Below, piece after piece: positions 8,701 through 63,418 of a stretch of 64,000 nt of DNA. The translations under genes were made by a program, and so were the position numbers. How positions within the stretch are numbered: position 1 is the stretch's first letter; every line of letters begins with the position of its first letter. The notes under the pieces are model-generated. The model saw nothing but the letters and a program-made list of their open reading frames with translations, had not been told where the DNA came from and searched no databases. Source of the DNA: Nitrospirillum viridazoti CBAmc (GTDB lineage: Bacteria; Pseudomonadota; Alphaproteobacteria; Azospirillales; Azospirillaceae). The stretch is from contig NZ_CP022110.1 in assembly GCF_000730165.1 (NCBI RefSeq), positions 496,001 through 560,000 of the forward strand. The letters run 5' to 3'.

Positions 8701-8828
8701 ACCCACGGTCCATCCGCACCTGACGGAAGCGAAGATTCGGCGCGGCGGCCCACGGTGATCGACGCCGGCGGCTGAGGCCATGGTTTGGCGATCGATCTGC
8801 TTTATCAGATAATATTCGCACCGATTAC

Positions 8829-8842
8829 TTGATGTGCGTCAA
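8829..8842 (+). promoter_or_regulatory. FNR/FixK-like box
   Basis: TTGATGTGCGTCAA fits the FNR/FixK/Anr-type inverted repeat TTGAT-N4-ATCAA with one deviation. It lies 80 nt before the start of the 78-residue protein, a distance that would fit class II activation with a transcript start near 8877. No regulator of this family is encoded in the window. Confidence 0.5.
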
Positions 8843-8922
8843 ATAGGGGGACCAATACGAGAGAACAGTTGCGAAGGAGCCGGCGCGGGATTTTCATGGA
8901 GGCACAAAGGTGGAGGTGTCCC

Positions 8923-9159
8923 ATGACCCAGTACAGCACCTATTCCCTCGTCTTGAGGGAGCACATAGCGGATCTCGACCCCCTCATCGACCGGTGGACC
9001 AGCGGGCATTTCCGGCTGACCGGCGCCGCCCATGACGAGGCCGAGGAATTCGTGGATCGCCTCAAGGATCTGCGGGCCGAACTGGCCAGCCGCATCGCGC
9101 GGCCGGATCTGGAGGGTCGCATGACCCCCCAGGTCGCCGACGGCATGACGGTGCGTTAG
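8923..9159 (+). CDS. Small acidic protein, paralogue A
   Basis: A 78-residue soluble protein that I do not recognise. The start at 8923 is supported by a GGAGG ribosome site 6 nt upstream; the frame is open further up but without such a site. The sequence has a central REHIADLDPLIDRW block, then DEAEEFVDRLKDLRAEL, an amphipathic helix, and ends in RPDLEG followed by a polar tail. It is clearly homologous along its whole length to the 79-residue protein at 10195, with a YitT gene in between on the other strand. An FNR-like box lies upstream. No membrane segment or signal is present. Confidence 0.8.
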   Translation: MTQYSTYSLVLREHIADLDPLIDRWTSGHFRLTGAAHDEAEEFVDRLKDLRAELASRIARPDLEGRMTPQVADGMTVR

Positions 9160-9183
9160 CGGCGGTCCCGGAGTTCCCCATCC

Positions 9184-9226
9184 CCCCGCGTCCGTCCCCT
9201 GGCCAGTCCTGGTGACGGACGCGGGG
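9184..9226. terminator. Perfect 13-bp hairpin between convergent genes
   Basis: CCCCGCGTCCGTC at 9184-9196 is perfectly complementary to GACGGACGCGGGG at 9214-9226, with a 17-nt loop. It sits between the converging 3' ends of the 78-residue protein and the YitT gene. It lacks a T-run on either strand, so it is either a factor-assisted bidirectional terminator or a 3'-end stabilising stem. Confidence 0.5.
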
Positions 9227-9268
9227 CCGGGTGGGCTTTGTGCCCGATGCCCGCCCGATATCCGGTCG

Positions 9269-9898
9269 TCAGCGCGCCGGGTCGGCGGTCAGGCCCAGGT
9301 AGCGGTCGGCCCGGTGGTTCATGGCCACGATCATGTTGGCGACAACCGCGCCCATGACCGACAGGGCCAGGCGCTGCGGCGTCAGCACGAAGCAGGCGGC
9401 CGTCAGGATGGCCGCGTCCAGGCCCAGTTGGACATAGCCGGCGCGGATGCCGAACCGTTCCTGCAGGTACAGCGCCAGGATGTTGATGCCGCCCAGCCCG
9501 ATGCGGTGGCGGAACAGGATCAGCAGGCCGGTGCCGATCAGCCCGCCGCCGGCCAGCGCCGCGTAGACCGGGTTCAGTACGGCGAAATCCACCCAGCCGG
9601 GCGTCAGCCGCGTTTCCACCGTGACCAGGCAGACGGCGGCGAAGGTGCGCGCCGTGAAGCGCCAGCCCATGCGCCGCCAGGCCAGGACATAGAAGGGCAG
9701 GTTCAGCACGAAGAAGAACAGCCAGAATCCCTGGTCGGTCACATAGTGCAACAGCAGGGCCAGGCCGGCGATGCTGCCCACCAGCAATGTCGCCTTGGCA
9801 TATAGCACCGTGCCCAGCGAGACGAGCAGCGTGCCGATGCCCAGCGCTGCCAGGTCCTCATAAGATTTATGGTGCTGTTGATTGACTGGATTCATCAT
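9269..9898 (-). CDS. YitT-family membrane protein
   Basis: A 209-residue inner-membrane protein with about five to six hydrophobic segments. The YitT hallmarks are present: GTLLVSLGTVLYAKA, GSIAGLALLLHY, LNLPFYVLAW, and GGxIGTGLLILFRHRIGLGGINILALYLQ. The family is widespread and its function is unknown. An ATG pair at the start (9898 and 9895) makes the first codon ambiguous by one residue. It is flanked on both sides by plus-strand paralogous small proteins. Confidence 0.85.
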   Translation of the reverse strand: MMNPVNQQHHKSYEDLAALGIGTLLVSLGTVLYAKATLLVGSIAGLALLLHYVTDQGFWLFFFVLNLPFYVLAWRRMGWRFTARTFAAVCLVTVETRLTPGWVDFAVLNPVYAALAGGGLIGTGLLILFRHRIGLGGINILALYLQERFGIRAGYVQLGLDAAILTAACFVLTPQRLALSVMGAVVANMIVAMNHRADRYLGLTADPAR

Positions 9899-47721: not shown

Positions 47722-49014
47722 CTACGCCCTGAACAGGGCCGGATCGCCGCTGCCCGGGTGGAAGCCGGGGAAGACGGCATCCACCTGGGCCACGCCCATG
47801 CGATGCTTCAGCACGCTGGTCAGCACGTCGCGATAGTCGGTGGTGACAGCCAGGTCAACGCGCTCGTCCAAGTCCTGCGGCTGCAGGCCCGGCCAGCGGC
47901 CCAGCAGGCGGCCGCCCGCCACGCCCCCGCCCAGCACCATCATCAGCGAGCCATGGCCGTGGTCGGTGCCGCCGCTGCGGTTGGCCCGCAGGCGGCGGCC
48001 GAACTCGCTGACCGTCACCAGGGTGATGCGATCGTGATAGGCCGACAGGTCGTTCCAGAAAGTGCTCAGCGAGCCCGACAGCTGGTGGATCAGGCTCTTG
48101 AACCGGCCGGCCTGGCCCTCATGCGTGTCCCAGCCGCCCATGTCGACGCAGGCGACCTTCAGGCCGGCATCCATGCGGATCAGGCGGGCCACCGTCTCCA
48201 GCGAGCGACCGACGTCGCCCTCGAAGGCGCCGCCATGCTCCGGCTGGTAGGCCAGGACCTTGCCGTCCGGCCCTTTGGGCAGGGCGGCGTTCAGGCGCAG
48301 CGCGGCGTCCAGCGCCACCCGGCCCCCGCGCGCGACATTGGGGTTGAAGGATGCCGGCTGGCCGGCGGCGGGGTACAGCCGCTCCAGCACCGCCTGGGTG
48401 CTTGGCCCGCCGGGCAGGCCGAAGCCGCCGCGCAGGTCGGGAATGGACAGGGCTTCGGGATAGCCTTGCAGCAGCTTGGGCACGCCCCCGGCGGTGCTGA
48501 CCGCCACCAGCTCGCCATTGCTTCCCATCTGGTGCAGCAGGCGGGCGACCCAGCCACCCTCCGTGCCCAGGACGCCGTTGCCCTTGGGCTCCTCCGCCAA
48601 GCCACGCTCCATCAGTTCCTGCGCCTCGAAATGGCTGCGGGTGGCGTTGGACAGGCCGGTGGCGTGGACGATGGCCAGGTCGCCCTGGCGGTAGAGCTCA
48701 TGCAGGGCGGCGGCCTCGGGATGCAGGCGGAAGTCCACACCCTGCGCCAGATCGCTGTCCATCGCGATGCCGGCCTTGTCGCCGCTGTCCAGCAGCCGCA
48801 GGTCGGCCGGCCGCGCGTCGATGTAGACGGCGTCGTTGGCCGGGCCGATGAAGTTCAGCACGTCCATGCCACCGCGGAAGAACAGCACGACCAGGATTTT
48901 GCCATTGGGCGCGCCACCGGGCGCGGCAAAGGCCAGCTGGCCCAGGCCGGGCACGGTGGTGAGGGCGCCGGCGGCGGCCAGGGTCTTCAATATCTCGCGT
49001 CGATTGAACGCCAT
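47722..49014 (-). CDS. DUF1501 secreted protein
   Basis: A 430-residue exported protein of the DUF1501 family, which has an alkaline-phosphatase/sulfatase-like fold by prediction. The N-terminus NRREILKTLAAAGALT with a following hydrophobic stretch looks like a twin-arginine signal. Conserved parts: LVVLFFRGGMDVLN, HPEAAALHELY, VDMGGWDTHEGQ, VTVSEFGRR and the TDHGHGSLMMVLG metal-type motif. It is the downstream partner of the DUF1800 gene, 18 nt apart. The pair is widespread, but no biochemical function is established. Confidence 0.9.
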   Translation of the reverse strand: MAFNRREILKTLAAAGALTTVPGLGQLAFAAPGGAPNGKILVVLFFRGGMDVLNFIGPANDAVYIDARPADLRLLDSGDKAGIAMDSDLAQGVDFRLHPEAAALHELYRQGDLAIVHATGLSNATRSHFEAQELMERGLAEEPKGNGVLGTEGGWVARLLHQMGSNGELVAVSTAGGVPKLLQGYPEALSIPDLRGGFGLPGGPSTQAVLERLYPAAGQPASFNPNVARGGRVALDAALRLNAALPKGPDGKVLAYQPEHGGAFEGDVGRSLETVARLIRMDAGLKVACVDMGGWDTHEGQAGRFKSLIHQLSGSLSTFWNDLSAYHDRITLVTVSEFGRRLRANRSGGTDHGHGSLMMVLGGGVAGGRLLGRWPGLQPQDLDERVDLAVTTDYRDVLTSVLKHRMGVAQVDAVFPGFHPGSGDPALFRA

Positions 49015-49032
49015 GATCGTCTCTCCTCCCGC

Positions 49033-50634
49033 TCAGCGCAGCTGGAACGCGGGGCTCATGGCCACGTAAGCGGCCAAGCGGCGGTTGGCGAATTCGCCGG
49101 TTTTATTGTCCACCATGGGCGGCGTGTCGGCGGCCAGTGACAGGCCGCCCAGCAGCGCGGCCGCGTCGATGGCCGTGGGGCTGCCCAGCAGGCGGTCGGA
49201 CCAAAAGGCCACCGCCTGGCCGCTGTGGGCGGCGGCCGGCCCCATCTGGGCCGTGGCGGACAGGCCGGGGGGCATCCACCACCCCTCCGCCAAGCCCAGC
49301 GCCAGGTTCCAGCGCGCCCGCATGTTCTGCGCGCCCAGCCAATAATCGTCGGCCACGGGGTGTCCGTCGGGGCTGGGCCAGGCGTACAGCTTCTGCCCGG
49401 CGCTATCCATGGTGCCCACCAGCGGCTCGCTGGCGGTGACGGGTATGCCGGTGGCGCGCGCGAAGCTGGCCACCAGTTCCAGCGGCCGCTTGGGCCTGGC
49501 GCCCCAATTGGCCGTGGCCTGGGGCGACAGGGCGATCAACCGCACCACCCGGGCGATCTGGTCGGGGCGCTGGCGGTTGTCCAGCCAAGTCGCGGCGGCG
49601 GCCTTGACCAGCTCCGGCGACGGTTCCCCGCCCAGCAGGGACCGCACCATCTTGGTGCAGATGAACTGGGCGGTGGCGGGATGGTTGGCCACCAGGTCCA
49701 GCACCTTGTGCCCATCGTTCTGCGGCGGCTGGTAGCTGTCGAATTCCGCCGCCAGCACGCGCTTCTGGTAATTGTCGTGCCAGGATTCGATGTAGGTGAA
49801 GCGGCCGTCGTTGGGCGCCTTGTAGCCGCCCAGATCCTGGCCGCTCTGGATGCTCCACCCGGTGAAGGCGCGGCTGGCCTCATAGACATCCTGGTCGATA
49901 TAGCCCTCAGGGGCGCCCTTCAGGGCGCCGGGCACGTCGCGCCAGCGGTCGTACTGGGTGTTCAGGTAGGCGTCGCGGCCCAAGGTGTGCAGTTCGAACA
50001 GCTCACGGGCGTAGTTCTCGTTGGCCGCCCCGCCGCGCGAGGATCGGTTGTTCAGGTAGATCAGCATGGCGGGGCTGGTCGCCACCGCCTCCAGCAGATC
50101 GCGGAAATTGCCCAGGGCGTGGGCCCGCAAGGCGGCGTCATAGGCGGGCAGCGCCGGGGCCGTGTAACTGTCGGCCGCGTTGACGGAGAAATGGTCGTGC
50201 CAGAACAGCGTCATGACCTGGCGCAGCTGGGCGGGGTCGTAGACTGCGCGGATGACCGTGGCCGCGGCCAAATCCAGACGCGGGCGCACCCGTTCCTGAT
50301 AAGGCAGCTTGCGGTCCGGCTGGTTCAGCGACCACAGCGCGTCCACCGGCTGGTCCAGGGTGCGCAGCGGGCGCATTTCATCCAGCGCGGCCCAGCCTTC
50401 GCCGGCGTCGTACTTGATGCGCATGACCGCGCTGTCCAGCTTCTGCTGGCATTCGGGCCCCGGGCCGGTGCCGGCGGCCGCCAGGTGCAGCTGCTCATCC
50501 AGCCAATGCGGGATGCCCTGTTGCTTCAGGGCCTGAGCGTCACCGGGCCTGGGGCCATAGGCGAAGCGGTTCAGGAATATCCATTCTTGCGACGGGGCGG
50601 CGCCAGCGGCCGCAACTGGGGTGGGGACGACCAT
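49033..50634 (-). CDS. DUF1800 family protein
   Basis: A 533-residue protein of the DUF1800 family. It has the hallmark N-terminal FLNRFAYGPRPGDAQAL, then MTLFWHDHFSVN, NENYARELFELHTLG, ASRAFTGWSI and HDNYQKRVL. The start at 50634 has GGAGG 7 nt upstream; no clear signal peptide is seen, though VVPTPVAAAGAAPS is weakly hydrophobic. The following DUF1501 gene is always its companion in many genomes, and together they are thought to act in the cell envelope. Function is unknown. Confidence 0.9.
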   Translation of the reverse strand: MVVPTPVAAAGAAPSQEWIFLNRFAYGPRPGDAQALKQQGIPHWLDEQLHLAAAGTGPGPECQQKLDSAVMRIKYDAGEGWAALDEMRPLRTLDQPVDALWSLNQPDRKLPYQERVRPRLDLAAATVIRAVYDPAQLRQVMTLFWHDHFSVNAADSYTAPALPAYDAALRAHALGNFRDLLEAVATSPAMLIYLNNRSSRGGAANENYARELFELHTLGRDAYLNTQYDRWRDVPGALKGAPEGYIDQDVYEASRAFTGWSIQSGQDLGGYKAPNDGRFTYIESWHDNYQKRVLAAEFDSYQPPQNDGHKVLDLVANHPATAQFICTKMVRSLLGGEPSPELVKAAAATWLDNRQRPDQIARVVRLIALSPQATANWGARPKRPLELVASFARATGIPVTASEPLVGTMDSAGQKLYAWPSPDGHPVADDYWLGAQNMRARWNLALGLAEGWWMPPGLSATAQMGPAAAHSGQAVAFWSDRLLGSPTAIDAAALLGGLSLAADTPPMVDNKTGEFANRRLAAYVAMSPAFQLR

Positions 50635-50729
50635 TCCCGGCCCTCCTTGATCAATCGATCCGACCCCCATGCTACTCTATTTCCCGTCATAACCCGGCGT
50701 CCGCCAGTAGCGGTAGGGTCTATGGATAG

Positions 50730-57564: not shown

Positions 57565-57595
57565 AAAGGGCGCCCCATGTTGGGCGCCCTTTTTT
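57565..57595 (+). terminator. Terminator after carbonic anhydrase
   Basis: AAGGGCGCCC and GGGCGCCCTT pair in a 10-bp stem with a short CATGTT loop, followed by T-rich sequence. It also separates the gene from the converging Pls-like synthetase (stop at 57612). Confidence 0.9.
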
Positions 57596-57611: not shown

Positions 57612-60600
57612 TCAAACAGGCTGCGCCGGGCAGCCTATGAAGCGGCTGCCCGCCGGCAGGTGCTCACCCTTCATGGCCAGGGACAGGGGTCCCAGTTCGG
57701 AACCCCGCCCCAGCACGGAATCGTACAGCACCACGGACCCGGCACCGACATGGGCGCCAGCCTCGATGGTAACGGGCCCCAGCTTCATGACCCGGTCCTC
57801 GAACAGGTGGGTCTGCAGGGTGACGCCCGGGCCCATGGCGGCATCGTCGCCGATGTGGATCATGTCCAACTCGCACAGGTAGGCCGTTTCCAGGTAGACG
57901 CGGTGGCCCACCTTCGCGCCCAGCAGGCGCATGTACAGCGGCAGGAAGGGCGTGCCCAGGAAGGGCCCCAGGACCCAGCCCGCGAGGGCGTCGTACAGCG
58001 AGGTCACGAACTCGATGCGCCAGACGGCCGTGCTCCACAGCGGATGGATGCCGGGGCGGAAGCGGCCGATCACCCCCCACTTCACACAGGCCAGCAGCAG
58101 GGCCGCGCTGACGCAGATGACCAGCGGACCCAGGCCCAGCCACAGCAGGGCCAGCCACAGGCTGGAGACGGCCAGGGCATGGGCCGCCAGCCACAGGGCG
58201 CCCACGGTGGCGGTGCCGGTGATGCCGCCCTGCACCAGGATGCGCAGCGCCTCGATGACGGCGCGGGTGGCGATCAGGCGCGACGTGGGGGCGACGGTGT
58301 AGGCCTCGGAGATGCCCTCCACCTTCTGGCGCCGGGGCAGGCGCACCGGCGGCAGGCCCAGCCAGTCTGTCTGGCGGTTGGCGTCCAAGGGGGCGGTGGA
58401 CAGCACGCCTACCAGGCAATTGTCCGGCAGATCGGCGCCGGCCGGCAGGAAGGCGGAGTTGCCGACGAAGGTGTCGTGGCCCACCCGGGTGGGCGCGAAG
58501 CGCACCAGGCCGCCGTGGATGGCGGGGCTGCCCACCAGCGAGGCGTCGGCCAGGAAGGCACGGTCGCCCACCTCCAGCTGTTCCGGCACCACGTGGGCCA
58601 CGGTCGACACCTCGCAGGCATGACCGATCTTGGCCCCCAGCAGGCGCAGCCAGGTGGCGGAGAACAGGCTGCCGTAGACGGTGTACAGCTGCTCCACCGC
58701 CATGCGGTGCACGCGGTCGGCGAACCAGCGGTGGCATTCCACCATGCTGTCCAGGCGTACGCTGGCGCGCCCCACCACCGGCGGCACCAGGCGGCGGGCA
58801 CCCAGCAGCACCAGGGCGGTCCAGGGCATGCACACCGCCCCGCCCACCACGCCAGCCAGGATCAGCAGCGGGCCCATACGGGCGATGGGCAGTTCGGTAC
58901 CCAGCACCAGGGCGAAGGCGACGGCCAGGGGCAGCAGGGTCAGGAAGCGCACCAGGCTGAGCCCGGCCAGGCCCAGCAGGTAGCGGCCGGCGCGGGGGCG
59001 CAAGGGCCCGTCCGCCCGGCCCACCATCCAGTCCGGCCGCGACGACGGTCCGGCGGGGGAGCCCGCCCACACCGCGTCCGCCGGCACCACGGCCCCGTCG
59101 ATCAGGCAGCTGCGCGCGTCCAGGCCGGCCCCGGCCTCCAGCGCGCTGCCCAGGCCGACGATGGACGCGGCGCCCACCGTGGCGTTCGAGCCGATGGCCA
59201 CGGTGCCGATCTCGATATGGCCGGCGCGCACATGGTGGGTCAGCAGCAGCGTGTCCTCGCCTACCGTGGCGTGGTCGCCGATGGTGATCAGGTCCCACAA
59301 CATGCCGCCGTGGCATCCCAGGAAGCTGCCATGGCCGATACGCCCGCCCATGGCGCGGGCGTACAGCCGCATCAGCGGCGTGCCGGCGATCCAGGACATG
59401 GGCAGGGCGGCCTCGATATGGCTGACCATCCACCAACGCCAGTGCCACAGGCCCCACAGGCGATGGCGTCCCGGGCGCACGCGGCCCAGCAACAGCCATT
59501 TGGCGGCGATGGCCAGGGCGAAGGACACCGGCAGGGCGGCGATGGACAGCCCGGCCATGATGACGAAGGACAACGGGCTCAGCCGCCCGGTCATGCCGTG
59601 ATGGACCAGCACGCCCAGCATGACCAGCATGGGCAGGCCGCCCAGCGCCGTCACCAGCGGCAGGGTCATCGCCTGGGCCAGGCCGAAGGCCAGGTGGCGG
59701 CGGGTGCTGGCGCGCCGTGTCTCGCTGGTGACCTTGGGCGTCGGCGGCGCCGCCAGGACCTGGGCCAGGCCCCGGACGGTGGGGTTCAGGTATAAGGCAC
59801 GCACGGTGGCGCCGGGGTGGCGCTGGCGCAGGCGGGAGATGGCCGAGGCCGCGGCCAGCGAATGGCCGCCCAAATCCATGAAGAAGTCGGCGTCGCGGGC
59901 GCGGATGGGCCGGCCCAGCGCCTGGGCGAAGGCGTCGGCCACCTCTTCCTCCGCCTCGCCCTGGGGCGGATCGCCGATGTCCTCCGGGACGTCGCGGGGC
60001 GTGGGCTCCGGCAGTTCGCGCCGGTCGATCTTGCCACCCACGGTGCGGGTCATGGCCGGCACCTTCACCAGGAAGCTGGGGCGCATGTAGGCGGGGACGG
60101 AGGCGGCGACATGGGCGGCGATGGTGTTGCGGTCGGCCGTACCGACATACCAGATGACGATGCTGTCGACGCCGGCCACCGGGCGCACGGCGGCGGCGGC
60201 CAGCTGCACGCCGGGGCAGCCGGCGGCGATGGCCTCGATCTCGCCCAGCTCAATGCGGAAGCCGCGCAGCTTCACCTGGTTGTCCACACGCCCCAGGAAG
60301 TCGACGCGGCCGTCGATCAGAGGGCGGCCCAGGTCGCCGGTGGCGTAGAGCCGCTGCCCGGCGGCGTCCACCTTGAAGCGCTTGGCCGTTTCCTCCGGCC
60401 GGTTCAGGTAGCCGTCGGCCAGGGCGGGGCCGCCGATATGGATCTCCCCTGTCTCGCCCACCGGCACCGGCAGGCCGTCCGGGCCCAGCACCAGCACGCG
60501 GTAGCCCGGCAGCCCCCGGCCGATGGTCACCGGCTGGCCGGCCCGGGCCTCGTCCGCCGTCGCCACCACCGAGGCCTCGGTGGGCCCGTAGGTGTTCAGC

Positions 60601-61544
60601 ATGCGCCGGCCCGGGGCCCAGCGGTCGACCAGGGCGGCGGAACAGGTCTCACCCCCCACCACCAGCAGGCGGACGTCGGGCAGATCCTCGTCGATCAGGC
60701 CCAGCAGGGTGGGGACGGTGGAGAAGAAGGTGGCGCGGCGGCAGCGCAACTCGCTGGCCAGCAGCTGCGGGTCGCGCATCACCAGGCCGGAGGCCGGCAG
60801 CAGGCAGGCGCCCGCGGCCACGGCCAGCCACACCTCCTCCACCGAGGCGTCGAAGGCCAGCGAGAAGCCCTGCCATACCCGGTCCGTCTCGGCCAGCTGA
60901 TAGACCTGCGAGGCGCCGCGCACATAGGTCATGACGGCGCCGTGCGACAGCACCACACCCTTGGGCAGGCCGGTCGTGCCGGACGTGAAGATGAGGTAGC
61001 AGGTGTCGGCGGGCGTGGCCGGCAACACCGCGTCCGGCAAGCCATGGGCCGAGACGATGGGGTCGTCCAGCAGGGCGGTGCCGATCAGGTCCTCCGGCGC
61101 CACCGAGGCGACGCCGGGCACGGCGAAGTCGCCGGCGGCATCGACCATCAGCAGGCTGTCGGACTGCTCCGCGATGCTGGCCACGCGGGCGGCGGGCCAG
61201 CTGGCGTCGATGGGAATATAGGCGGCGCGGCGCAACAGGATGCCGAACAGGCAGGCGTATAATTCTGCGGTGCCACGACCGCGCAGCATGATTCGCGCGC
61301 CGGGGCCCACACCCCGGGCGGCCAGGGTGGCGGCGACACGGCGGGCCCGTTCGCCCATGTCGCCCCAGGTCAGCATGAAGCCGTCGCCGGTTTCCACCGC
61401 CGGCAGGGCTGGCGTGGCGGCCACGCGCGCCAGGAACAGCGCCGCCAGCGTCTGGGCGCCGGCCAGGCCGTGATGCGGGCCGCCCGGCTGCTGGCCGGGC
61501 CCCTCCGCCTCCATCCGTTCGGCGATCAACGAACCGCTGAGCAT
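57612..61544 (-). CDS. Pls/PosA-type non-ribosomal peptide synthetase
   Basis: A 1310-residue single-module synthetase. An adenylation domain (about 30-515) has IFTSGTTGLPKGVV, TYGPTEASVVAT, YATGDLGR and GGKIDRRELP. A carrier domain (about 530-605) has the phosphopantetheine Ser562 in DLGGHSLAAAS. The rest (about 625-1310) is a membrane domain with several hydrophobic segments and repeated hexapeptide (left-handed beta-helix) modules such as IGDHATVGEDTLLL and IGDDAAMGPGVTLQ. This plan is that of epsilon-polylysine synthetase relatives, which join amino acids by isopeptide bonds without a thioesterase. My pocket reading (Asp232, Ala233, Glu236, Ser275, Val295, Gly297, Thr318, Val326, Val327, Lys505) resembles a lysine code. 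There is no condensation domain. Confidence 0.88.
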   Translation of the reverse strand: MLSGSLIAERMEAEGPGQQPGGPHHGLAGAQTLAALFLARVAATPALPAVETGDGFMLTWGDMGERARRVAATLAARGVGPGARIMLRGRGTAELYACLFGILLRRAAYIPIDASWPAARVASIAEQSDSLLMVDAAGDFAVPGVASVAPEDLIGTALLDDPIVSAHGLPDAVLPATPADTCYLIFTSGTTGLPKGVVLSHGAVMTYVRGASQVYQLAETDRVWQGFSLAFDASVEEVWLAVAAGACLLPASGLVMRDPQLLASELRCRRATFFSTVPTLLGLIDEDLPDVRLLVVGGETCSAALVDRWAPGRRMLNTYGPTEASVVATADEARAGQPVTIGRGLPGYRVLVLGPDGLPVPVGETGEIHIGGPALADGYLNRPEETAKRFKVDAAGQRLYATGDLGRPLIDGRVDFLGRVDNQVKLRGFRIELGEIEAIAAGCPGVQLAAAAVRPVAGVDSIVIWYVGTADRNTIAAHVAASVPAYMRPSFLVKVPAMTRTVGGKIDRRELPEPTPRDVPEDIGDPPQGEAEEEVADAFAQALGRPIRARDADFFMDLGGHSLAAASAISRLRQRHPGATVRALYLNPTVRGLAQVLAAPPTPKVTSETRRASTRRHLAFGLAQAMTLPLVTALGGLPMLVMLGVLVHHGMTGRLSPLSFVIMAGLSIAALPVSFALAIAAKWLLLGRVRPGRHRLWGLWHWRWWMVSHIEAALPMSWIAGTPLMRLYARAMGGRIGHGSFLGCHGGMLWDLITIGDHATVGEDTLLLTHHVRAGHIEIGTVAIGSNATVGAASIVGLGSALEAGAGLDARSCLIDGAVVPADAVWAGSPAGPSSRPDWMVGRADGPLRPRAGRYLLGLAGLSLVRFLTLLPLAVAFALVLGTELPIARMGPLLILAGVVGGAVCMPWTALVLLGARRLVPPVVGRASVRLDSMVECHRWFADRVHRMAVEQLYTVYGSLFSATWLRLLGAKIGHACEVSTVAHVVPEQLEVGDRAFLADASLVGSPAIHGGLVRFAPTRVGHDTFVGNSAFLPAGADLPDNCLVGVLSTAPLDANRQTDWLGLPPVRLPRRQKVEGISEAYTVAPTSRLIATRAVIEALRILVQGGITGTATVGALWLAAHALAVSSLWLALLWLGLGPLVICVSAALLLACVKWGVIGRFRPGIHPLWSTAVWRIEFVTSLYDALAGWVLGPFLGTPFLPLYMRLLGAKVGHRVYLETAYLCELDMIHIGDDAAMGPGVTLQTHLFEDRVMKLGPVTIEAGAHVGAGSVVLYDSVLGRGSELGPLSLAMKGEHLPAGSRFIGCPAQPV

Positions 61545-62170
61545 CAACGTCCCACCCCTGAGCCCCGGGGGCGAAAAGCCGCCCGCCTGGGGGAACCCGG
61601 TATACGCCGGTAAAGGTCCACATTCCCATGACCGTTTTCATCCCCTACGTAGGGATGGGCACCCCGAATTCGCGCGAACGCGGGGGGCCTCGGTACCGGT
61701 CCGAACCTATCCGACACACACCCGTTGTAGATGGCCGATCGACCCCCCATGTCAAGCGGTTGGCCTATAGACCCAGGGTCGCATACAAAATAAAGGGGGG
61801 CGAGGGGGAAAGCCTACTTCCCTGGAGGTAGCGGCCGGGGCCTTCCGGAACGCCACGTAAAGCTCCGTTACAAAACGATACAAAGAGCGGCTTTTCCCGT
61901 AACACAACCCTCTGTAGGTTCAGCCTCGAAACAGGCGGACCTGCGGAGATTAGGCTTTTGGTCAGATCTTCCGCTGTAAATCAGGCGTTGTCCGCCACCA
62001 CGGTCGCGGGGGCCGTGGGTTCGCTGGCAGGCACGCCCCTTTTGGGTTTCCCCAAAAGCGCTGGACTGTGCCCGCACGAGCCCTTGCTTCCATCGTCCGT
62101 GCCACCGCCAATCCCGACATCCCAACGCGGCAGCAGTTTGGGTGCCGGCTGGACAAAAGGCTACAAGACG
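61545..62170. other. 626-nt intergenic region, divergent promoters
   Basis: Lies between the Pls-like synthetase and the efflux operon, which are divergent, so it should contain promoters for both. Features: an AT-richer patch around 61780-61800; TACAAA direct repeats (61870-61882) enclosed by GTTAC (61867-61871) and GTAAC (61898-61902); and a perfect hairpin CTTTTGGG/CCCAAAAG at 62039-62058. I see no gene; an open frame reaching left to 61958 in front of the adaptor does not look like protein. Confidence 0.5.
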
Positions 62171-63418
62171 ATGACCATCCATTCCGCTGAACTTCCGGCC
62201 GACCGGACCGACCTGGGCGCTTATGCACCGGCGGGGGCCCCTGGCCGCCTGCGGGGCCGGTCGGGGCTCAAGCGCTATCGCTGGTGGTTGCTGGCCGGGG
62301 GTGTCGTCGTCCTGGGCGCCATCGCCGCCGCCGTCCTCATGCGTTCAGGCGCCAAGCCGGCGGCCCCGGCCGCCGCGCCAGCCAAGGTGTCCGCCCTGCC
62401 GGTGACGGTGGCGCCGGTCGTCGTGGCCCCCGTCACCCGCACCTTGTTGGTCACCGGTTCGCTGGCCGCCTTCGATGACCTGCCCATCGGCACGGAAACG
62501 TCGGGCCTGGCCCTGGCCGAGGTGCTGGTCGACATCGGCGACACCGTGAAGAAGGGCCAGCTGCTGGCCCGCTTCAACGACAGCGTGCTGCGCGCCGACC
62601 TGGCCGAGAAGGAGGCGTTGCTGACTGAGGCCAAGGGCAACGTGGTCGAGGCCGACGCTAACTACGCTCGCGCCCAGGACCTGGTGCGCACCGGCGCCAT
62701 GAGCGCGCGTGACCTGGACAACCGCCGGGCCCTGGCCGTCAGCATGCGCGCCCGCGTCGGCGTGGCCGAAGCCAACCGCGACCTGTCGATCGCCCGGCTG
62801 AAGCAGTCAGAGGTGCGCGCACCCGCCGACGGCACCATCACCGCCCGCACCGCCCGCATCGGCGCCGTGCTGTCCGCCGGCGGGACCGAGCTGTTCCGCA
62901 TGATCCGCGAGAACCGCGTGGAGCTGGTGGCCGAGGTGCCCGAGAACGACATGATGGTGGCCAAGGCCGGCCAGACGGTGAACGTCACCATCGATGGCGA
63001 CAACATGGCCCACCATTACGTCGGCACCATCCGCGTGGTGGAGCCGACGGTGGACAACAAGACCCGCCTGGGCCGCCTGCGCATCGACCTGGAACGGAAC
63101 CCCGACCTGCGGCCCGGCATGTTCGTCACCGGCCGCGTGGCCGTGGGCCAAGCCGACGGCCTGGTGGTGCCGGAAGCCGCCATTGTCTATCGCGAGGTGC
63201 GGCCGGTCGTGTTCGTGGTGGACCAGGAAAACAAGGTCGCCGGCCGCAGCGTCACCACCGGCGCCCGGCAGGACGGCAACATCGCCATCGTGTCCGGCGT
63301 GAAGGCGGGCGAGAGGGTTGTGCTGTCCGGCGCCGGCTACCTGAAGGACGGCGATGTGGTCACCGTGGTCGACAAGGCCGTGGAAGGCACGGTCAAGCCG
63401 CTGCCGGTGCAGCAGTAA
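62171..63418 (+). CDS. RND efflux periplasmic adaptor (MFP)
   Basis: A 415-residue membrane-fusion protein. An N-terminal anchor helix (WWLLAGGVVVLGAIAAAVLM) follows about 36 cytoplasmic residues. Then comes the lipoyl-like half (VLVDIGDTVKKGQLLARFND), a short helical hairpin with LVRTGAMSARDLDNR, and VRAPADGTITARTARIGAVLSAG. The beta-barrel and membrane-proximal domains follow (LRPGMFVTGRV, VVPEAAIVYRE). Start at the ATG 62171. The following gene, 23 nt downstream, is the RND pump. The substrate is unknown. Confidence 0.93.
   Translation: MTIHSAELPADRTDLGAYAPAGAPGRLRGRSGLKRYRWWLLAGGVVVLGAIAAAVLMRSGAKPAAPAAAPAKVSALPVTVAPVVVAPVTRTLLVTGSLAAFDDLPIGTETSGLALAEVLVDIGDTVKKGQLLARFNDSVLRADLAEKEALLTEAKGNVVEADANYARAQDLVRTGAMSARDLDNRRALAVSMRARVGVAEANRDLSIARLKQSEVRAPADGTITARTARIGAVLSAGGTELFRMIRENRVELVAEVPENDMMVAKAGQTVNVTIDGDNMAHHYVGTIRVVEPTVDNKTRLGRLRIDLERNPDLRPGMFVTGRVAVGQADGLVVPEAAIVYREVRPVVFVVDQENKVAGRSVTTGARQDGNIAIVSGVKAGERVVLSGAGYLKDGDVVTVVDKAVEGTVKPLPVQQ

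Follow-up and report, generated by a model that had tools for sequence, protein, structure and literature searches.

Gene and Locus

The window analyzed here is a stretch of 64,000 nucleotides from Nitrospirillum viridazoti CBAmc. Near its end lies a complete gene for a Pls/PosA-family, nonribosomal peptide synthetase (NRPS)-like synthetase (57612..61544, minus strand), recognized from its open reading frame and its matches to TIGR02353 and TIGR01733, and encoding 1310 aa from ATG. The frame is uninterrupted over 57612-61547 (minus strand) and counts 1311 codons from an alternative TTG start at 61547, from which residues are numbered below. The ATG at 61544, with a AGGGGTGGG stretch six bases 5' of it, is the likelier start. 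Between the synthetase gene and a convergent carbonic anhydrase gene sits a palindromic, possibly two-way terminator (57565..57592, listed on the plus strand; 11 pairs, loop of 6, T run), which is putative and found by pattern match only. On the other side a divergent gene for an HlyD-type efflux fusion protein (61958..63418, plus strand, start uncertain), identified with Pfam, is followed by an AcrB/AcrD/AcrF pump gene that extends beyond the window end. A promoter scan at the locus found none. With a convergent carbonic anhydrase gene, a terminator-like site and a divergent pump as its surroundings, the synthetase appears to stand alone, and a gene-cluster reading was discarded.

The gene is present in 7/7 Nitrospirillum genomes, that of the window included, and is a single gene common to the genus. 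The HlyD gene adjoins it in all seven Nitrospirillum loci, the window counted, and the neighbor genes recur in 7/7 genus loci (window included) versus 0/7 loci of other genera (12-20 kb each). In comparisons with five relatives of the genus (5 pairs) the synthetase has a dN/dS of 0.05-0.22, similar to that of the neighbor genes, and is under purifying selection. The phosphopantetheine serine of the carrier domain (Ser563) and the pocket residues Asp233, Glu237 and Lys506 are each conserved in 96/96 rows of the family alignment, and these four residues together with the dN/dS values argue that the feature is real and not a chance frame. That the gene is decayed or silent and yields no product is scarcely credible: the frame is interrupted at about residue 645 in one Nitrospirillum genome of the seven (G006) but unbroken in the other six, the dN/dS range resembles that of the neighbors, and the motifs sought in the synthetase are all retained.

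Domain Architecture

The initial annotation had described adenylation and carrier domains fused to a membrane domain, the plan of relatives of the epsilon-poly-L-lysine synthetase Pls, and on this TIGR02353, TIGR01733 and Pfam agree. The adenylation domain (59997..61451, minus strand; approximately residues 33-517 with TTG=1) is covered by PF00501 and by an above-cutoff TIGR01733 match (341.9 bits, residues 60-451), and 7wew (Pls A domain) and 8g95 (PosA A domain) are among its matches in the PDB. It is followed by a peptidyl carrier domain (59757..59945, minus strand; PF00550, 38.4 bits) with Ser563 at 59859-59861, and then by a membrane-bound NRPS terminal (polymerization) domain (57624..59678, minus strand), recognized from TIGR02353, an AlphaFold2 model and partial Foldseek matches. 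This order, adenylation and carrier domains and then a C-terminal NRPS terminal domain, is that of the Pls/PosA family. The TIGR02353 "Pls/PosA family" model is matched full-length by residues 624-1308, at 551.6 bits against a cutoff of 423.1, and the C-terminal half, failure of which to align with the Pls-family terminal domain had been named beforehand as grounds for rejection, does align at the level of sequence. Pfam reports four families in all, among them AMP-binding (41-381), PP-binding (535-597) and Hexapep; at E 0.001 neither a condensation nor a thioesterase family is found on the synthetase, as the initial annotation had it.

Specificity Pocket and Substrate

Pocket positions 1-9 (D233, A234, E237, S276, V296, G298, T319, V327 and V328; 60564..60851, minus strand) were assigned from alignments to 7WEW and PosA, and position 10 (Lys506; 60030..60032, minus strand; K in 96/96 rows) from an alignment to LgrA. 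The pocket thus reads D-A-E-S-V-G-T-V-V-K, the ten letters first proposed for it, and the 96-row family alignment returns them identically; the Asp and Glu expected of the family at positions 1 and 3 are D233 and E237. In Pls, lysine is contacted by D213, E217, S256, T301 and K495 according to PMC11253843, the numbering of which is one lower than that of the 7WEW chain. D233, E237, S276 and T319 keep these contacts letter by letter against 7WEW, and K506 is placed at Pls K495 from the alignment ends, by position only. Eight of the nine aligned pocket positions equal those of 7WEW. The lone difference, I to V at position 5, counts against a lysine reading; in PosA this position makes no substrate contact (PMC10522769).

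Of the 89 rows from outside Nitrospirillum, taken from a search kept to the best 80 of 561 together with 28 further stretches, 16 agree with the Pls code at nine or all ten of its positions, and the match is therefore selective. The lysine-like pocket had originally been argued from the lysine code of bacitracin synthetase, which we take to be D-A-E-S-I-G-S-V-C-K and which the window pocket equals at 7/10 positions. This likeness does not settle the matter, since the nearest code of Acinetobacter PosA is also the bacitracin lysine module, yet that enzyme activates ornithine (PMC10522769). As proof of lysine the bacitracin code was therefore dropped as weak, whereas the lysine assignment itself stands on the agreement with Pls. 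It is decided by positions 2 (Ala), 4 (Ser) and 9 (Val), which agree with the solved poly-lysine synthetase, unlike PosA. A pocket pointing to a different amino acid had been set beforehand as a refutation; the code as aligned points to lysine.

The product could instead be a cationic homopolymer of another diamino acid, above all L-ornithine (delta-poly-L-ornithine, as made by PosA, a member of the same family), and the 151-residue pocket region indeed scores higher with PosA (128.7 bits) than with Pls (116.7 bits), an observation counted against lysine. PosA Met218Ala moreover retains its ornithine preference (PMC10522769), and Ala at position 2 alone therefore makes no lysine enzyme. Over the whole protein Pls scores 267.5 bits and PosA, with its shorter chain, 236.7. 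PosA of Acinetobacter baumannii shares the domain plan, the predicted C-terminal fold and the Asp, Glu and Thr of the pocket, and its gene, like that of the window, appears to stand alone. Its ten-letter code, D M E H N G T V S K, equals that of the window at 6/10 positions only, with Met, His, Asn and Ser where the window has Ala, Ser, Val and Val (positions 2, 4, 5 and 9). The Ser at position 4 is that of Pls, versus His in PosA, and Val at position 9 replaces a PosA Ser that binds the delta-amine of ornithine and whose loss costs 183-fold (same source, PMC10522769). With PosA-type rows also falling in a separate clade of the adenylation tree, we consider ornithine, or another such monomer, rather improbable. 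The code of epsilon-poly-beta-lysine synthetases, D G E S I S V V N K, departs from that of the window at positions 2, 5, 6, 7 and 9, and this reading was rejected. A lysine 2,3-aminomutase gene is absent among the eight Pfam-scanned neighbor proteins and the pump gene.

Family Spread and Phylogeny

Polymers of this kind had been presented as well-known in Streptomyces and little studied in alphaproteobacteria. This does not hold: the family is wider, with the "Pls/PosA family" label on plasmid records from Azospirillum, Rhizobium, Shinella, Phyllobacterium, Sphingomonas and Skermanella, and it was mined in 2023 (PMC10522769), its spread and pocket codes being already published. The synthetase is thus a further, rather divergent member of a known enzyme family. 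Within its bacterial family, 31/82 genomes gave no match at E 1e-60. For the named set the top 80 loci of 561 were kept, 28 further stretches were added, and the resulting code frequencies are not a census; 12 of the 108 loci were omitted from the code table as being without a usable full-length reading, the masked rows of Azospirillum and the interrupted G006 frame among them. The seven Nitrospirillum rows of that table represent six genomes because one contig appears twice, as L054 and as L078.

Azospirillum Pls/PosA proteins come from the same bacterial family and share the domain plan but are of another type, being 35-38% identical to the window protein. The four read (L069, L070, L074 and L075) carry the pocket code DLEDIGSVVK, and L069, the one of these four placed in the trees, falls in a separate clade. 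The similar DLEDIGTV(T/V/I)K has been described as an unusual code from rhizobia, Methylobacterium and archaea (PMC10522769). Azospirillum frames of approximately 2000-4100 aa raised the idea of multimodule synthetases ending in a Pls domain. All seven longer stretches (L068, L070-L073, L076 and L077; G395 and G399 left out) hold long N runs, which keep the frames open, and Pfam found no extra domains in the three of the seven that were scanned; the idea was therefore dropped.

Once the pocket columns are taken out, the adenylation tree leaves the window outside two clades of 17 rows each, one with ornithine-type and DLED codes (support 96/98) and one with mostly Phe-type codes (100/99). It is placed beside other Ala-type rows at a weak support of 33/66, and an AU test of the adenylation part, with Pls included as a 155-residue fragment, does not reject a single Ala-type clade (p 0.18). 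Pls enters the tree solely as this fragment and sits on a long branch. The C-terminal tree, which was made by a quick method and in which the rows of the window were flagged for unusual composition, does not unite the Ala-type rows in one group. The branch of the window lineage is very long, at 2.16 (adenylation) and 2.04 (C-terminal) changes per column, which was also counted against lysine.

In a more elaborate reading, Nitrospirillum would hold an old, private poly-lysine synthetase lineage whose lysine pocket was acquired independently of its close relatives in Azospirillum, whose adenylation and terminal domains may have different histories, and whose product the HlyD-AcrB pump may export or protect against. 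We regard this as an unlikely, tentative proposal; if true, a self-contained polymer system would be fixed in a nitrogen-fixing plant associate.

Terminal Domain and Proposed Product

The AlphaFold2 model of the C-terminal half (pLDDT 90.2, pTM 0.90) predicts three repeats, each a membrane helix pair with a beta-helix, that is, the six transmembrane helices in three pairs typical of Pls/PosA proteins. The predicted fold is consistent with the description of PosA in PMC10522769. Hydropathy gives five hydrophobic stretches in this half, the final two helices being merged. A Foldseek search with the model returned 113 matches at E <=0.001, the best 50 of which are hexapeptide-type proteins (acyltransferases) with partial coverage and TM-scores by query of 0.07-0.16; a solved whole terminal domain is absent among these best 50. 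Where left-handed beta-helix modules had been proposed, model, hydropathy and Foldseek thus support the membrane and beta-helix parts, the handedness being assumed from the hexapeptide-repeat match. The third repeat carries the motif QTHLFEDRVMK (57783..57815, minus strand), with H1247 conserved in 95/96, E1250 in 95/96, D1251 in 94/96 and K1255 in 95/96 rows; His1247 is a candidate catalytic residue and, at a guess, the base.

Taken together, these data point to an epsilon-poly-L-lysine synthetase, with predicted substrate and product, a reading to which we assign a probability of about 78%. The adenylation domain would activate L-lysine to lysyl-AMP, with Asp233 and Lys506 holding its alpha-amine and carbonyl and Glu237, Ser276 and Thr319 its epsilon-amine. 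By analogy with the family, lysine would then be loaded onto the phosphopantetheine of Ser563, and the terminal domain, with its three membrane hairpins and three beta-helices, would repeatedly couple the carboxyl to the next epsilon-amine and release a short polycationic isopeptide. This product may leave the cell and, we speculate, target competing microbes or surfaces. Alternatively, lysine might be loaded and the divergent terminal domain yield a short oligomer or lysyl transfer instead of a free homopolymer. The C-terminal domain sits on its very long branch without a clear sister group, and aminoacyl transfer by a hexapeptide-type fold would be chemically possible, given the partial fold matches. 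Against this, 146 of the 156 terminal-domain columns that are >=94% conserved in 50 other rows are kept in the window, the QTHLFEDRVMK motif is retained and TIGR02353 is matched over its full length, which leaves such a product very unlikely.

Epsilon-poly-L-lysine is a food-grade antimicrobial polymer currently made with Streptomyces, and Nitrospirillum is a nitrogen-fixing plant associate. If epsilon-poly-L-lysine is indeed the product, the synthetase would offer a Gram-negative, plant-associated source for it, and the polymer could be tested as a competition or root-colonization factor; a search of open-licence literature found nothing linking Nitrospirillum with polylysine or a nonribosomal peptide. 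A divergent sequence with the lysine contacts of Pls would also help to separate residues that choose lysine from those merely inherited. Pls of Streptomyces albulus (7WEW), from a host of another phylum, is alike in domain plan, pocket and reported lysine contacts, and is approximately 52% identical across a 155-residue pocket stretch. Among the neighbors identified in the window, no peptidase of the pldII type, or any other that might degrade the polymer or protect the cell from it, came to notice, a point counted against the assignment. Two PF01648 phosphopantetheinyl transferase matches in the genome, in turn, count in its favor.

Results and Discussion

The minus-strand frame at 57612–61547 encodes 1311 residues from a TTG codon (residue 1 in the numbering used here) or 1310 from the ATG at 61544, the start chosen in the initial annotation. 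Its assignment there to the Pls/PosA type held, as residues 624–1308 match TIGR02353 ("Pls/PosA family non-ribosomal peptide synthetase") at 551.6 bits against an NCBIfam cut-off of 423.1, with TIGR01733 (amino acid adenylation) matched at 341.9 bits (cut-off 317.4). Pfam returns AMP-binding, PP-binding and hexapeptide repeat matches and, as anticipated, neither a condensation nor a thioesterase domain in the synthetase. Motifs TSGTTGLPKG, NTYGPTE, YATGD, GRVDNQVKLRG and GGKID are found, together with the carrier motif LGGHSL containing Ser563. Judged from its sequence, the enzyme is real, conserved and probably functional, belongs to the Pls/PosA family and has a pocket that reads as that of a lysine enzyme. 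It keeps 146 of the 156 columns that are at least 94% conserved in 50 other aligned sequences (rows), and comparison with five relatives from the genus gives dN/dS values of 0.05, 0.05, 0.12, 0.19 and 0.22, with 0.10–0.27 for four neighbor genes against three relatives each. Excluded from both measures is the copy of relative genome G006 (locus L056), the sole one among seven Nitrospirillum with a broken frame (near residue 645), which may reflect either genuine loss or an error in sequencing.

Alignment with solved adenylation-domain structures of Streptomyces albulus Pls (epsilon-poly-L-lysine synthetase, 7wew) and Acinetobacter baumannii PosA (delta-poly-L-ornithine synthetase, 8g95 and 8g97) places pocket positions 1–9 at D233, A234, E237, S276, V296, G298, T319, V327 and V328, and position 10 is K506. 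Over the aligned stretch Pls reads D A E S I G T V V, differing from the window at one of nine positions, and the eight identities with the Pls adenylation domain speak for the lysine-like pocket first proposed. In the available text of a review (PMC11253843), the amine and carbonyl of the substrate are held in Pls_A by D213 and K495 and the epsilon-amine by E217, T301 and S256. Counting along the aligned chain, in which Pls numbers equal those of the review plus 1, D213, E217, T301 and S256 correspond to D233, E237, T319 and S276, and K495 to K506 by position, provided that the aligned stretch ends without a gap. The PosA pocket, in the available text of PMC10522769, is D M E H N G T V S K, in which Ser313 (position 9) touches the delta-amine of ornithine, its loss costing 183-fold, and Met218 (position 2) restricts chain length; the window enzyme instead has Val and Ala, respectively, at these two positions, as does Pls. 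Two observations count against the lysine reading: the same source describes PosA Met218Ala as retaining its ornithine preference, and over the pocket region of the window PosA outscores Pls (128.7 versus 116.7 bits). The likeness to the bacitracin lysine code noted initially is unsafe as the sole argument, because the nearest code of PosA is likewise the bacitracin lysine module and yet PosA activates ornithine (PMC10522769, available text).

Of 108 family loci (80 named, the best 80 of at least 561, and 28 stretches from other genomes), 96 gave a complete reading, the window's among them, with position 2, after which we name the types, being Met in 43, Ala in 23, Phe in 16, Leu in 11 and another residue in 3. 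The Ala-type rows comprise 7 from Nitrospirillum, all DAESVGTVVK (one contig entered twice), and 16 others, reading DAESIGTVIK (14) or DAESIGTVVK (2), from Planctomycetota, Verrucomicrobiota, Cyanobacteriota, Myxococcota, Bacteroidota and others. The 89 non-Nitrospirillum rows match the Pls code at all ten positions in 2 cases, at nine in 14, eight in 4, seven in 13, six in 43, five in 10 and four in 3. All four fully read Azospirillum rows (L069, L070, L074, L075) carry DLEDIGSVVK, with Asp at position 4. Divergent Skermanella-type members read DFECLSVVTK (L065, L066) or DFEPLSAVSK (L067); in the tree of the C-terminal domain, L065 and L067 lie on a long branch. DLESIGTV(I/T)K occurs in two archaeal metagenome bins (L086, L129; contigs titled Thaumarchaeota and Bathyarchaeota), and archaeal members are mentioned in the available text of PMC10522769.

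While the code is that of lysine, the descent of the window synthetase is uncertain, and separate histories of its adenylation and C-terminal halves are possible, because of the two trees and a very long Nitrospirillum stem (2.16 and 2.04 changes per column, respectively). In the adenylation and carrier tree (54 rows, careful method, pocket columns removed), in which a 155-residue fragment, flagged as long and poorly filled, is all that represents Pls, the window belongs neither to a 17-row clade combining ornithine-type and DLED (DLEDIGSVVK and like) rows (support 96/98) nor to another 17-row, mostly Phe-type clade (100/99). Two Ala-type sequences from alphaproteobacteria are its closest neighbors beyond Nitrospirillum, a placement that is weakly supported (33/66), and a single clade of all Ala-type rows is not rejected (AU test, p 0.18). 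The C-terminal tree (53 rows, quick method with one kind of support, Nitrospirillum rows flagged for odd letter make-up) places the window within a group (support 95) made up of 12 Phe-type rows, 6 Ala-type rows and 1 of another type, the Ala-type rows being scattered. Since Azospirillum row L069 lies in a clade other than that of the window in both trees, the two genera seem to share no orthologue.

AlphaFold2 modeling of the C-terminal domain (40-row alignment; mean pLDDT 90.2, pTM 0.90) predicts three repeats, each combining long helices, one strand and shorter helices with a series of short strands that resembles a beta-helix. Five stretches marked by hydropathy cover these helices, the last two helices being merged, and Foldseek matches galactoside, maltose and serine O-acetyltransferases and other hexapeptide-type proteins to part of the model, which together favor the membrane domain with beta-helix modules suggested at the outset. 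A solved whole C-terminal domain is absent among the best 50 of 113 matches at E ≤0.001; the predicted fold agrees with the model described for PosA in the available text of PMC10522769. The third repeat contains QTHLFEDRVMK, of which H1247, E1250 and K1255 are each kept in 95 of 96 rows. His1247 is a candidate for the base that would assist the epsilon-amine in attacking the carrier thioester, an assignment made by analogy with hexapeptide acyltransferases.

The gene is present in all seven Nitrospirillum genomes, the window's own counted, and matches occur in 51 of 82 genomes and 3 of 13 genera of the bacterial family (Nitrospirillum 7/7, Azospirillum group 41/45, Skermanella group 3/5) and in 10 of 385 genomes in an even draw across the class. 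A 2023 paper (PMC10522769, available text) described the family, its distribution among Proteobacteria and its pocket codes, and public sequence records already name Pls/PosA-family genes; the novelty is small and consists in a lysine-type member that occurs across Nitrospirillum, sits on a long branch of its own and differs from the Azospirillum type. Adjoining genes for an OPT transporter, a TPR protein, DUF445, a 175-aa protein, carbonic anhydrase and HlyD recur in 7/7 Nitrospirillum loci and in 0/7 loci of other genera (12–20 kb each). The synthetase gene appears to stand alone, as a palindromic terminator-like site (57565–57592) separates it from the convergent carbonic anhydrase gene on one side and the HlyD gene upstream, with an AcrB/AcrD/AcrF gene after it, is divergent; posA likewise stands alone (PMC10522769, available text). 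A link to this pump is only a guess, because the adjoining HlyD gene is found solely inside the genus. Two PF01648 matches in the window genome could supply phosphopantetheinyl transfer, and other condensation-domain matches lie on contigs 3 and 4. Richer surroundings than those of the stand-alone window gene are seen on a Sphingomonas parapaucimobilis plasmid (L161), where a Pls/PosA gene, whose code DMEHNGTVTK is ornithine-like, is overlapped at its end by a phosphopantetheinyl transferase gene (8747–9304), and genes for a GNAT acetyltransferase and S8 peptidase come next. Elsewhere in the window, adjacent DUF1501 and DUF1800 genes form an apparent pair (47725–50670, −).
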